Shown piece after piece: positions 2,891-25,014 of a DNA stretch of 25,014 nucleotides (its first letter is position 1; the number at the start of each line of letters is the position of its first letter). The position numbers and the translations under genes are program-made. Source of the stretch: a virus. The stretch covers positions 1 to 25,014 of the IMG/VR virus record IMGVR_UViG_3300048583_000145. The stretch is one strand, 5' to 3'. The notes below the pieces were generated by a model. The model was not told the DNA's origin and ran no database searches. It worked only from the letters and a program-made list of their open reading frames with translations.

Positions 2891-3908
2891 GTGTCCATGA
2901 ATCCTGCTGACCTTGCCGCCGCCCTCGAGCTGATGGCTCAAGCGCTGCGCCACCTGCCCGCCGCCGCTGCGGCCGCGCCTCAACCTCAGCCGCAGCCGGC
3001 GCCGGCCGAACTGCACCGGACGCTGGCCGAGTGGCTCGACGTGCACGAGCGGCTGCTCCGAGACCGCGGCTACAAGGCGCAGACGCTGAAAAACCGGACG
3101 GCCAACCTCGCGCACGTCCGGCGCCTCTGGGGCCAGCGGCCGGTGGCCAGCATCAAGCCGCACGAGGTGGCGACTCAGCTCAAGACGTTCGGGCCTGATC
3201 GCACGTCGACTGCCGGCCGTGTGCTCGCCGAGCTGCGCGACGCCTACACCGAGGCGATCGCCAACGGCTGGGCCGACAACAACCCGGCGGCGCACATCAA
3301 GGCACCGAAGCACCGCGTGCTGCGCGCCAGGCTGAAGCTGGAGACGTGGCAGGCGATGCGCACCCTCGCGCACGCCGGGCCACAGCGCTGGGTGGAATCG
3401 ATGCTGCTGCTGGCCCTGGTCACTGGCCAGCGCCGCGCCGACCTGGCGCGCATGCGCTTCGAAGACGTCGTCGACGGCCACCTGCGCGTCGAGCAGCAGA
3501 AGCAGGCCGGCAAAGGCTACGGCGCCCGCGTCGAGATCCCGCTGGCCTTGCGCCTGGACGTTATCGGCATGACCGTCGGCGAAGTCATCGAGCACTGCCG
3601 CAGCACCGCCAAGCCCGGTGCAACGCTGCTGCGCAAGGCGGGCGGCGGTGCAATCGAAGAGTCTTCGCTGTCGGCACGGTTTCGAGCATGTCGTCGCGGT
3701 GCTGGGTGACGGGGCACATCGTCAGTACGAATGGCCCAGCCTGCACGAGGTGCGCTCGCTCTCGGCTCGGCTGTACCACGCGCAAGGCATCGACGTGCAG
3801 ACCCTGCTCGGCCACAAGCACGCCGAGATGACCGAGGTCTACAAGGACGATCGGGGTCTGTCGCGTGACCAGTACAAGCGCGTCACCGTGCCCGCGCCGG
3901 CTCGCTGA
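2891..3908 (+). pseudogene. Lambda-Int-type tyrosine integrase split by a one-base frameshift
   Basis: Two overlapping frames make one integrase. The first frame (from GTG 2891 or ATG 2897 to the stop at 3707-3709) carries a Pro/Gln-rich N-terminal extension, an SAM-like core-binding domain and the first catalytic arginine (TGQR, R181). The second frame, ending at 3906-3908, carries HEVRSLSARLYHAQ, LLGHKHAEMTEVYKDDRG and the tyrosine, very close to the lambda Int C terminus (HELRSLSARLY, LLGHK, YRDDRG). Skipping one T in the TTT at 3680-3682 joins them smoothly as SLSARFEHVVAV. It is most likely inactivated or a sequencing error; a +1 slip of tRNA-Phe from TTT to TTC before a CGA codon is a less likely alternative. 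Its location inside a late operon is unusual. Confidence 0.8.
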
Positions 3909-21841: not shown

Positions 21842-22036
21842 ATGATCCGCCGCGTCAAGCAGCCGCGCAAGATCGTCCGGCGCTACACGTTCCGGGCGCT
21901 GTCAGCGGTGGCGGCGGTCCAGGCGGCCACATTGCTTTGGGGCCTGTTGCCGCCGGCCTGGGTGCAGTGGCTCACCCTGCTGGTGGCGCTGCTCGGCGCG
22001 TTCGGTGCGTTCGTTGACCAGCCCGACGCCAGATGA
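21842..22036 (+). CDS. Small two-helix membrane protein, holin-like candidate
   Basis: A 64-residue protein with a strongly basic N terminus (IRRVKQPRKIVRRYT), then two hydrophobic helices (about residues 19-34 and 40-57, LSAVAAVQAATLLWG and WVQWLTLLVALLGAFGAFVD) and a short polar tail. This is the shape of a small phage holin or membrane accessory protein and it sits at the end of the late operon, where lysis genes are common. However, no endolysin follows in the window. The stop overlaps the next ATG (ATGA). Confidence 0.6.
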   Translation: MIRRVKQPRKIVRRYTFRALSAVAAVQAATLLWGLLPPAWVQWLTLLVALLGAFGAFVDQPDAR

Positions 22037-22266
22037 ACGCCCAGCCTGCCGGCGCGCCAGACGATGACCGCGACACGGTGGTGGAAGCCTGCCTGCGCTG
22101 CGGGCGCGTGCTGCGCATTCCGGGCGTGTTCCCAGCTGCCGAGCCCGCAGCCTGGATGGTGATCGCCGCCGGCGGCGCGCGATCGCTGCACCTCGAGCGG
22201 CCGGTCGCAGAGGCCTACGCGGCGCGGGTGCATGGGGTGTGCCGGGCGCTGCATCTCGCCATCTGA
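22033..22266 (+). CDS. Small late-operon protein with a CxxC motif, unknown
   Basis: A 77-residue protein whose ATG overlaps the previous stop. It has a polar, acidic N terminus (NAQPAGAPDDDRDTVVEACL), C20-x2-C23 in ACLRCGRVLRIPG, and a later single cysteine. It is the last plus-strand gene before the convergent attachment region. A lone CxxC is too little for a family call. Confidence 0.5.
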   Translation: MNAQPAGAPDDDRDTVVEACLRCGRVLRIPGVFPAAEPAAWMVIAAGGARSLHLERPVAEAYAARVHGVCRALHLAI

Positions 22267-22334
22267 GCCAGCCGCTTTGCGGGAGCGGTTGCGGGAGTTG
22301 CGGGAGCGATTCGCGCTAAGTTGTTGATTTTGGC

Positions 22335-22377
22335 TGGCGGAAGGGGCGGGATTCGAACCCGCGGAGGGCTGTTAACC
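22335..22377 (-). pseudogene. 3' fragment of a class II tRNA gene (tRNA-Ser-like), attachment core
   Basis: On the minus strand the segment contains a variable-arm piece (GGTTAACAG), the T-arm GCGGG-TTCGAAT-CCCGC, the acceptor 3' strand CCCTTCC, the discriminator G and an encoded CCA (22337-22335). The matching 5' acceptor strand (GGAAGGG), D-arm and anticodon arm are absent from the next 100 bases. So this is not a functional tRNA but the part a phage carries to restore the host gene on integration. The long variable arm and the CTTCCGCCA end indicate tRNA-Ser. Confidence 0.8.
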
Positions 22378-22446
22378 AAACGGCCCGATGAGCACTGGCG
22401 CGGGTTCTGAGGCGATTGCTCCCGCATCCGACATGCGGTTGGCATG

Positions 22447-22469
22447 AAAAAGCCGCCTATGAAGGCGGC
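22447..22469 (-). terminator. Intrinsic terminator of the minus-strand recombination operon
   Basis: Read on the minus strand: GCCGCC, loop TTCATA, GGCGGC, then TTTTT. It is a perfect 6-bp GC stem with a five-T tail, 18 bases beyond the stop of the last minus-strand gene and just before the attachment core. Confidence 0.85.
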
Positions 22470-22487
22470 CTGATGCGGGAGCGGTTT

Positions 22488-22688
22488 TCAGTCTAGCGTC
22501 AGCGTCGTATCTGTCGTCTGCGAGACCCGCCGCTTGATCGTGCGCTGCGGATGTCCTCTGCGCAGCATCCAGTACAACGCGCGGCGCCACCAGCGCGTAT
22601 CTCGCACGGTGAGGCTGATGAAGTCGCCGGCCTTGAACCCGTGGCCATCAGCCGGAAACGCTGTCGTGATCGTCGTTCTGGAATCCAT
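22488..22688 (-). CDS. Small basic phage protein downstream of the integrase
   Basis: A 66-residue protein if started at the second of two close ATGs (22688), which has AAGG at normal spacing; the first ATG (22694) directly abuts that site. The sequence starts MDSRTTITTAFPADGHGFKA, continues GDFISLTVRD, and has a Trp/Arg-rich helix (TRWWRRALYWMLRR). It is the last gene of the operon, 16 bases after the integrase stop and just before the terminator. Not recognised; the basic, Trp-rich helix would suit nucleic-acid or membrane binding. Confidence 0.5.
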   Translation of the reverse strand: MDSRTTITTAFPADGHGFKAGDFISLTVRDTRWWRRALYWMLRRGHPQRTIKRRVSQTTDTTLTLD

Positions 22689-22704
22689 CTTCATCCTTGG
22701 TTGT

Positions 22705-23709
22705 TCAGCGCAGCGGCTTGATGATCTCGCCCTGCCTGTAGTGCTGCCTGGTTGTCGAGGTCGACGAATGCTGCAGCAGCGTCGATGCGGCCTGCAGTGA
22801 CTCGCTCTGCTGGGCCGCCCGCTTACGCATGTCACGCAGCCACAGATCCGCCGCGGCAGGGCACTCGGCGGCGGCCTTCGCCCGCGCGGCAGTGAAGCGG
22901 TCAGACAAGCGCCGGTAGGTCACCGGACGCCGGCCAGCGGCGAGCAGGAAGACATGCTCGCATCCCCGCATCGCCCGTCGGCGCTCGACGATCTCCGACA
23001 GGACCGAGCCGGCCAGTGGGAACTCGGCGCGCTTGCCCGTCTTGCCGGCGTCGACCACCAGGCGGCCGTCGCGCACGTCGGACAGGCGTAGCGCCAGGAC
23101 GTCATAGACCCGCAGCCCGGTCGCGGTGGCAATGTCGATCGCGTCGCGCAGGCACTGGTCGGCGTGCTTGTAGATCGCGGCCAGCGGCGCGTCCTGCACC
23201 TCGATCTGCCGCACCCCGGCCTTGCCCTTCCACCCGGAGCGCTGCATGCCCACGGCCGGCCACGGGCGGTCGGTAAGTCCTTGCAGGCGCGCCCAGCTCC
23301 AGATGACCGACAGCAGCTGCATCTCGTGTCGCGCGCGGGTCTTGGCCGAGCGCTTGTCGACGTACTGCTTGAGGATGGGCAGGGTAATCTCTTCCCACCG
23401 GGCACGACCGAACACCGGCCGCATGGCGCGCAGGCAGTTGCCGTAGTTGCGCCGGGTGTCGGCGTTGGTGTACGCCGGCAGCGCGCCGCGCTCCCAGGCC
23501 TTGAACGCTTCCTCAAGCGTGCCGGCCATGCGCGGCGCGTCGAGGTAGAGCTCGGCCCACTTGCGCAGCGCCTGCGCGTGGTCGGTGCCCAGCGCGATGT
23601 CGGGCTGGCCGGTGCCGCGCATGTCGTACCAGTAGCTGGTCCACACCTGGCCAGCGCGCCCGCGCTTGACGCTGACGCGGAGCTTCGGGTGCTTCGACTT
23701 CTTGGGCAC
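22705..23709 (-). CDS. int: Phage tyrosine integrase
   Basis: A 334-residue site-specific recombinase with a GTG start. A basic N terminus (MPKKSKHPKLRVSVKRGRAG) could form an arm-binding domain; a SAM-like core-binding domain follows at about 65-150. Catalytic residues are R200 (TATGLRVYDVLAL), R295 in RDMRKRAA, H314 in LLQHSST and Y324 (RQHYRQGE). The usual HxxR histidine is an arginine (R292), as in the common phage 'RDLRAKA' subfamily. It starts four bases after the DUF4224 stop and ends next to the tRNA-Ser-derived core, so it is the likely integrase for that site, catalysing attP x attB recombination. Confidence 0.92.
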   Translation of the reverse strand: MPKKSKHPKLRVSVKRGRAGQVWTSYWYDMRGTGQPDIALGTDHAQALRKWAELYLDAPRMAGTLEEAFKAWERGALPAYTNADTRRNYGNCLRAMRPVFGRARWEEITLPILKQYVDKRSAKTRARHEMQLLSVIWSWARLQGLTDRPWPAVGMQRSGWKGKAGVRQIEVQDAPLAAIYKHADQCLRDAIDIATATGLRVYDVLALRLSDVRDGRLVVDAGKTGKRAEFPLAGSVLSEIVERRRAMRGCEHVFLLAAGRRPVTYRRLSDRFTAARAKAAAECPAAADLWLRDMRKRAAQQSESLQAASTLLQHSSTSTTRQHYRQGEIIKPLR

Positions 23710-23713
23710 GGCG

Positions 23714-23926
23714 CTACCTGACGGCGCCGAAGTCTACGCCGGCCGCAACTGGTGCCCGTTGCGGGAGCAGGGCGTGCGCCGCGGCCACTGTGCGGGAGAC
23801 GCGCACGGCGCGGCCGAGGAATTGAAACGGCACACCCAGCCGGGCCAATGCAGCGGCCTGAGACGGCGCGCGAGTCTTGCCGGTGATCTCGACCAGCTCG
23901 GCGTGGGTGAGGGTGTCGTCGGTCAC
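23714..23926 (-). CDS. DUF4224 protein, probable integration/excision accessory factor
   Basis: A 70-residue protein. The segment LTHAELVEITGKTRAPSQAA followed by ALARLGVPFQFLGRAVRVSR matches the DUF4224 pattern (L-x-x-EL-x-E-x-TG-x-x-R-x-x-x-Q-x-x-x-L-x-x-x-GI-x-F), a family almost always encoded just upstream of phage integrases and probably acting as a small winged-helix excisionase-like protein. Start is GTG at 23926-23924, overlapping the intI TGA (GTGA); no other start fits. Its C-terminal half contains two further TGCGGGAG motifs (23760-23767, 23791-23798), the same motif found around attP. Confidence 0.75.
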   Translation of the reverse strand: MTDDTLTHAELVEITGKTRAPSQAAALARLGVPFQFLGRAVRVSRTVAAAHALLPQRAPVAAGVDFGAVR

Positions 23927-24954
23927 GCCAGCGCGTCCAATGGGCTGCGCACGCCTGTCCGGCCCATGGCCGCGACGTGGGTGTAGATCATCGTGGTGCT
24001 GACGTCTGCATGCCCGAGCAGTTCCTGAATGCGGCGGATGTCAGTGCCGGCCTGCAGCAGGTGCGTGGCGAAGCAGTGCCGCAGCGTGTGCGGGGTGGCT
24101 GGCTTCGTCACGCCGGCAGCGCGCACCGCGTCCTTCATGGCGCGCTGGATGGTCCAGTCGAACAGGTGGTGGCGGCGCTCTTCGCCGGTCTCGGGGTTGA
24201 CGTGGTACTCGGGCGTGGCAAAGACGTACTGCCACGGCCACTCGGCGCCGGCGCGCGGGTACTTCTTGGCCAGCGCGTGTGGCAGATCCACGCTGGCATG
24301 CCCCGTGGCCATGTCGATCTGGTGCCAGCGCCGGCGCTGCTCGAGCAGCTCGGTCAGCGGCTTGACCAAGCGCTCGGGCAGCACGGTGACGCGGTCCTTG
24401 TCGCCCTTGCCGCCGCGCACGATCACCAAGCGCTGCGGGATGTCAATGTCCTTGACCCGCAGGCGCAGACCTTCCATCAGCCGCAGGCCGGTGCCGTACA
24501 GCAGCCGCAGGAAGAGCCCAGGCGTGCCGCTGGTGGCTGCCAGCACTGCGGCGGTCTCGTCGACGGACATCACCGTGGGCAGCCGCTGGGGCTGCTTGGC
24601 GCGCACGATGTTGTCGACCCAGCCGATCTGTATGCCGAGGGCGGCCTGGTACAAGAACAGGATGCCGTGCAGGGCCTGGCGCTGAGTGCTGGCCGAGACG
24701 TTGCCGTCGGTGGCCAGCCAGGTCAGGAACTCGGACACCTCAAGCTGGCCCATGTCGCGAGGGTGCCGCTTGCCGGACCAGAGGATGAAGCGCTTGGACC
24801 AGTGCCAGTAGGCCTGGAACGTCCGGCGGCTGTAGTGGCGCACAGCGCAGGCCTCGCGCATCAGCTGCTCAAGCCGCTTGGGCGGCGTGTCGCATAACGC
24901 GGGCGCAGCGTCGTGCGTAACCGCTGCGGGTGCTGGCAGATCAAGGACTTGCAT
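23923..24954 (-). CDS. intI: Integron integrase
   Basis: A 343-residue tyrosine recombinase of the IntI family. All catalytic residues are present: R158 (GTGLRLMEGL), K183 (RGGKGDKDR), H289 and R292 (HTLRHCFAT), H315 (LLGHADVSTTMIYTH) and Y324. Each is exactly 12 positions beyond its IntI1 counterpart (R146, K171, H277, R280, H303, Y312). The IntI-specific insertion is intact (LPHALAKKYPRAGAEWPWQY), as is the C-terminal GVRSPLDAL. IntI recombines folded attC hairpins with attI to capture gene cassettes. The unusual point is context: its stop overlaps the start of the phage DUF4224 gene, which is followed by phage int, making one apparent operon. It looks full-length and active. The start ATG has only a weak ribosome binding site. 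Confidence 0.93.
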   Translation of the reverse strand: MQVLDLPAPAAVTHDAAPALCDTPPKRLEQLMREACAVRHYSRRTFQAYWHWSKRFILWSGKRHPRDMGQLEVSEFLTWLATDGNVSASTQRQALHGILFLYQAALGIQIGWVDNIVRAKQPQRLPTVMSVDETAAVLAATSGTPGLFLRLLYGTGLRLMEGLRLRVKDIDIPQRLVIVRGGKGDKDRVTVLPERLVKPLTELLEQRRRWHQIDMATGHASVDLPHALAKKYPRAGAEWPWQYVFATPEYHVNPETGEERRHHLFDWTIQRAMKDAVRAAGVTKPATPHTLRHCFATHLLQAGTDIRRIQELLGHADVSTTMIYTHVAAMGRTGVRSPLDALA

Positions 24955-25014
24955 GCGGCGGCTCGGTGTTATGCGACGGTTGCGGCGTCAGGGTGTTGGC
25001 GAATTGAAGTTAGG
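24955..25014. other. attI-like integron recombination site (cut by window edge)
   Basis: This is the leader just upstream of intI, where attI sites lie. The final six bases are GTTAGG, the first six of the core site GTTRRRY; in class 1 attI the core is GTTAGGC preceded by A-rich DNA, and here it is preceded by GAATTGAA. Upstream, GTTATGCGAC (24968-24977) resembles the GTTA-Y-GC direct repeats that IntI1 binds in attI1, and it has a perfect inverted copy inside the intI start (24889-24898). The seventh core base lies outside the window. Confidence 0.6.

Follow-up and report, generated by a model that had tools for sequence, protein, structure and literature searches.

Integrons have been described in four temperate phages among 10,705 genomes (Qi et al., 2023; PMC9892861), namely Vibrio Va_90-11-286_p16 and PF430-3_p42, phage P1 L-II, and Shewanella M16-3, and have been explained as captured chromosomal integrons, as class 1 integrons or as lying in a cryptic prophage. 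Like the phage studied here, these phages carry IntI on the phage genome, with or without cassettes. Class 1 and sedentary chromosomal integrons share with the present set the IntI family, the attI core, and attC sites in the classical orientation. For the attachment site, the closest described systems are the tRNA-type attP sites of lambda- and P2-like phages, in which a core made of a tRNA 3' end is flanked by arms on both sides and adjoins int, with the excisionase gene beside int, and with the structural genes on the far side of the site from int.

The locus described here lies in a 25,014-base linear virus record, which is incomplete, lacks end repeats, and was analysed over its whole length (referred to as the window). 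It shares all of these attP features, but the combination of the TGCGGGAG arm and a tRNA-Ser(GGA) core with DUF4224 was met in our search only in the window phage and in one relative, L082. The IntI proteins of the four described phages are 43-54% identical to that of the window. Whereas the integrons of those phages were explained as captures, class 1 integrons or parts of a cryptic prophage, the window IntI belongs to a viral clade and lies in an int operon, and the cassette genes of its relatives are reversed.

Results

The window ends in a module with the order attI - intI - DUF4224 - int - attP. Its features, and the last gene on the other side of the site, are as follows:

22033..22266, plus strand: small gene that closes the structural/late side (77 aa, no family; ORF list); ends 11 bp ahead of the first arm site
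22277..22311, plus strand: P' arm with three TGCGGGAG sites (22278, 22290, 22299); spacing pattern common to L082
22335..22377, minus strand: attP core, the 3' 43 nt of tRNA-Ser(GGA), running from the variable arm through CCA; the 5' half is missing; L082 has this type of core as well
22419..22426, minus strand: inverted arm site inside a CGGATGCGGGAGCAATCG stretch; the stretch is kept in L082
22447..22469, minus strand: GC hairpin (GCCGCC-loop-GGCGGC) with five T on the int strand, spotted by eye; possible end of the int transcript
22474..22481, plus strand: distal P-arm site, TGCGGGAG; counterpart in L082
22488..22691, minus strand: small ORF that separates int from attP; no family (ORF list, domain and PHROG searches)
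22705..23709, minus strand: phage tyrosine integrase, 334 aa (PF00589, E 4e-10; phrog_1 integrase, E 2e-23)
23714..23926, minus strand: DUF4224 protein, probable excisionase, 70 aa (PF13986; phrog_1266 excisionase); GTGA overlap with the intI stop
23760..23798, plus strand: TGCGGGAG twice more, within the DUF4224 gene (23760-23767, 23791-23798; motif search)
23923..24954, minus strand: integron integrase IntI, 343 aa (TIGR02249, 427 bits); phage clade in the tree
24990..25014, minus strand: attI, by alignment with L002, L003 and L005; the contig ends with the six-base core GTTAGG (read on the plus strand), 25009-25014

The structural and late genes end at 22266, and the int and DUF4224 genes, which adjoin each other and the site, lie opposite. 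An earlier reading of this DNA from sequence alone (the sequence-only reading) had likewise placed structural genes on one side and int on the other. The product of 22033..22266 gave no PHROG match. A terminator scan called no terminator, the hairpin at 22447..22469 included.

The five arm motifs claimed earlier were all recovered, with TGCGGGAG at 22278(+), 22290(+), 22299(+), 22419(-) and 22474(+), so that arm-type repeats occur on both sides of the tRNA core. TGCGGGAG is the sole 8-mer in the window with at least five non-overlapping copies inside 210 bp, and shuffling of 224 bp of window DNA gave not even three copies in any of 20,000 trials. The two copies at 23760 and 23791, in the DUF4224 gene upstream of int, had been overlooked; they are possible binding sites for Int or Xis, with a possible role in autoregulation.

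The core, which lies on the minus strand, had been read as the 3' end of a tRNA-Ser gene, and its last 30 nt match complete tRNA-Ser(GGA) genes exactly. Such genes were found in 2/300 genomes drawn from the order to which a Roseateles genome belongs; their variable arm is similar to that of the window core (GGTTAA-AGCC). ARAGORN detected no complete tRNA anywhere in the window; the 5' half is therefore absent, as claimed. The proposed search for a host gene with the whole 43-base 3' end succeeded in part: the last 30 nt were matched, and the full 43-mer was not found in the hosts searched. An exact 43-mer search of viral contigs gave no match, and a 33-mer search allowing up to two mismatches gave none in 369 genomes of the class. 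No integrated copy of the window phage was seen in 401 genomes from the family of a Roseateles genome. Relatives of Int in these genomes are at most 48% identical, and thus there is no integrated copy giving attL and attR to read.

Among viral contigs, only two relatives of Int were found, L082 (63% identical) and L083 (46%). L082 (IMGVR_UViG_3300012346_000560) is a separate viral contig that shares with the window a DUF4224-like gene, int and the attP arm by arm, but differs in having no integron integrase beside int. In L082, int adjoins the 3' end of a tRNA-Ser, phage genes lie to either side of the site, and this site and that of the window correspond in the distal P-arm, the inverted site in CGGATGCGGGAGCAATCG, the tRNA-Ser core and three P'-arm sites. 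The P'-arm sites have the same spacing in L082 and the window, the middle one being decayed in L082. In Burkholderiaceae-type genomes with Int proteins about 44-48% identical, 5/10 loci read have a tRNA-Leu-like 3' end at the same place, about 130-400 bp past the end of int. The place is therefore a trait of the family, whereas the tRNA has changed.

A second tyrosine integrase (phrog_7244) is encoded at 2891-3908 of the window; its gene lies between those for head-tail joining (385-939), a glycosyl-hydrolase-like protein and the portal. The C-terminal part of this integrase, which includes the HEVR and LLGHK motifs, is encoded in a different frame, and therefore this gene is frameshifted or misassembled near 3700.

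The ORF at 23923-24954 is an integron integrase, scoring 427 bits with TIGR02249 against a cut-off of 265. It precedes the DUF4224 gene and int, its stop overlapping the DUF4224 start as GTGA. Homology with L002, L003 and L005 places attI beside intI. L002 is 91% identical over intI and attI and continues past the core into an ORF and an attC site; in L003 and L005, the cassettes begin at the same attI core junction. L002 and the window share a tail gene and the succession structural genes - lysis-side genes - int - intI - attI, although the int and excisionase gene of L002 differ from those of the window. The window contains no cassette since the contig stops at attI, but attC cassettes are present in the close relatives L002, L003, L004 and L005. 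The contig starts of L019 and L020 also lie at the attI core; such breaks in three phage contigs would be expected if the cassettes differ across the population. The sequence-only reading of the site as attP was supported; it had missed both the integron integrase in the same operon and the end of the contig at attI. A weak scan of 22200-25014 for a Pc promoter gave no sigma-70-like match.

The relatives of the window IntI in viral contigs are 95, 83, 83, 79, 75 and 73% identical, versus at most 60% for bacterial-genome IntI proteins among the best 80 matches listed; closer chromosomal IntI proteins could exist beyond these matches. IntI in 401 genomes of one family likewise showed at most 60% identity to that of the window. 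A quick tree built from 136 IntI proteins placed 47/62 viral rows, the window's included, in one clade with an SH-aLRT support of 97. The sole bacterial-genome row in this clade is L084, a Rubrivivax MAG contig of 34,391 bases, which is probably the viral contig of L020 (also 34,391 bases) binned in the MAG. A second bacterial contig, contig 21 of G1103, also belongs to the viral clade; in it, genes for IntI, an HTH protein and a phage integrase adjoin tail genes.

On that contig (L187; L197, 15588-18279), the phage-type intI-HTH-int module lies by a complete tRNA-Val and tail genes, with cassettes opposite the module, followed by genes resembling host DNA. Two viral loci with IntI outside the main clade (L067 and L075) differ in layout: their attC sites lie downstream of intI, which is the opposite side, and on the opposite strand.

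The records behind the viral loci were examined for phage hallmarks. The phrog_2 terminase model is a poor probe for these phages (5/45 records), and therefore portal and GpA models were used, giving a portal in 16/44 and a GpA terminase in 14/44. L005 is visibly a prophage and adjoins tRNA-Cys, tRNA-Gly and lon; 4.8 kb from the far contig end, where its second end was sought, contained no copy of the tRNA region.

An overlap of 4 or 1 bp between intI and the gene that follows was observed in 38/76 viral loci versus 14/79 bacterial-genome loci, and is not diagnostic alone because of the latter. The genes next to viral intI often encode small HTH or DUF4224-type proteins. A regex search detected a second tyrosine recombinase downstream of intI in at least 13/56 cases versus 2/73 in genomes; the regex misses divergent Ints, the window's included, and the count is therefore only a lower bound. 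Four loci (L016, L017, L018 and L038) have a ParB-like gene (623-640 aa) 17 bp after intI, with no excisionase there; this neighbour is another operon setting for phage intI.

For the cassettes, an attC covariance model was derived solely from sites in bacterial-genome loci. A first search with a strict pattern had missed L002, and the covariance model found both of its attC sites. In the relatives, 146 sites from 60 viral sources were found, all 146 on the classical strand relative to intI. The genes between them are oriented differently from those of class 1 and sedentary chromosomal integrons, which read away from intI. By a codon model trained largely on phage genes and intI, which left most chromosomal cassettes unscored, the ratio of genes towards to genes away from intI was 59:8 in viral loci versus 3:20 in bacterial-genome loci (Fisher 8e-11). 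Plain longest ORFs gave 59:25 versus 20:93 (1e-13), and the independent first attC scan gave 16:1 versus 4:18. The usual direction away from intI, which is typical of integrons and not defining, is thus not that of the phage relatives, the set on which direction was tested.

In the codon-model set, the start of 13 genes directed towards intI lies within the gene's own attC, and 18 such genes have their stop in the core box GCCTAAC; the bacterial set has none. In several relatives the attC is long, about 90-120 nt, and its hairpin loop contains a start codon and a stretch that resembles a ribosome site; at most of these sites the start belongs to a gene directed towards intI. The sites are:

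L059, 7771-7884
L072, 8981-9075
L043, 7404-7521
L014, 7552-7671
L004, 6115-6235
L022, 9566-9667

Cassettes are shared by phages with distant IntI proteins: L021 and L051 have in common a cassette of 90% nucleotide identity with IntI proteins 64% identical, and L054 and L051 one of 80% identity with IntI proteins 56% identical. The cargo of the relatives includes N6/N4 DNA methylases and PAPS-reductase-like, DUF5131, DHH-like and exonuclease-like proteins.

Discussion

The site is read as an intact attP, as had been claimed, because conserved two-sided arms, a 5'-truncated tRNA and phage genes on both sides fit such a site, and because the anatomy is equal in L082. One doubt concerns the repeats themselves: they could be, for example, operators for a repressor or excisionase, or replication iterons, as two TGCGGGAG copies sit in the DUF4224 gene, distant from attP. 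This is unlikely, given that copies border the core on both sides with a spacing kept in L082, like arm sites. It is extremely improbable that one flank of the site is host DNA and the site itself the attL or attR of a single integrated prophage. A tRNA 3' end would be present at one prophage end too, and L005, which is related through its IntI, is visibly integrated next to its tRNA genes and lon; but arm sites and phage DNA lie on both sides of the site, here and in L082, and this reading was rejected for that reason. Neither the complete tRNA-Ser gene outside one end nor the host DNA inside the window that would mark attL or attR was seen, and the window lacks a complete tRNA-Ser gene altogether. 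The central junction of two tandem prophages (P-O-P') would be equal in sequence to attP and indistinguishable from it on a linear 25 kb contig, and the proposed check of circularity, on an incomplete record of linear form, does not separate it from free DNA. Tandem lysogens are rarer than free phage DNA, and L082 has the same junction on an independent contig; we regard this alternative as quite unlikely. The contig thus appears to come from an unintegrated (virion or circular) genome, a tandem-prophage junction being less likely.

For the integron part, the alternative is either a chimeric assembly or, as has been proposed for the Vibrio anguillarum phages, a chromosomal integron that adjoins a prophage or was captured by one. 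Phage integrons described to date are mostly such captures (PMC9892861). For the window, however, this is very improbable: intI overlaps the excisionase gene, L002 keeps the gene order despite a different int and excisionase gene, and overlap with small HTH/excisionase or phage genes recurs among the relatives. Capture of a chromosomal integron was rejected on the tree, with its support for the viral clade, and on the identities, by which IntI is close to proteins of viral contigs and not to those of bacterial chromosomes, among the best 80 matches listed and in the 401 genomes.

Taken together, the locus is, with high confidence from its sequence, the intact attP of a temperate tailed phage with its Int, DUF4224 protein and TGCGGGAG arms, in an unintegrated genome that carries an integron integrase in its int operon. 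Judging from homology and anatomy, Int would bind the TGCGGGAG arms, with the DUF4224 protein as the probable directionality factor, and would carry out recombination between the tRNA core and the host's tRNA-Ser(GGA) gene, at its 3' end, integration restoring the tRNA. IntI would recombine cassettes at attI, upstream of its own gene. By analogy with the relatives, cassettes inserted there would have their genes facing intI, and would thus be readable within the phage operon by the transcripts of intI, the excisionase gene and int.

There is nothing unusual in the attP as such, a new member of the known tRNA-type class. We found no report in the open-access literature of a phage-specific IntI lineage, of placement of intI in an int operon, or of reversed cassettes, and the surrounding module is an integron variant not previously reported there.

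More broadly, temperate phages, at least some of them of Burkholderiales-like hosts, probably own a separate integron lineage situated in the excisionase-integrase operon, with reversed cassette genes, some having their ribosome site and start in the attC hairpin and their stop in the recombination core, which could be swapped between phages and, read from the phage operon, be expressed without Pc. An attP-int-excisionase-intI-attI module of this kind would offer temperate phages a site-specific exchange of accessory genes, and would add a mechanism for phage mosaicism as well as a natural reservoir of cassettes. It would also be a case in which the direction of cassette genes has been reversed to suit the transcription unit of the carrier.
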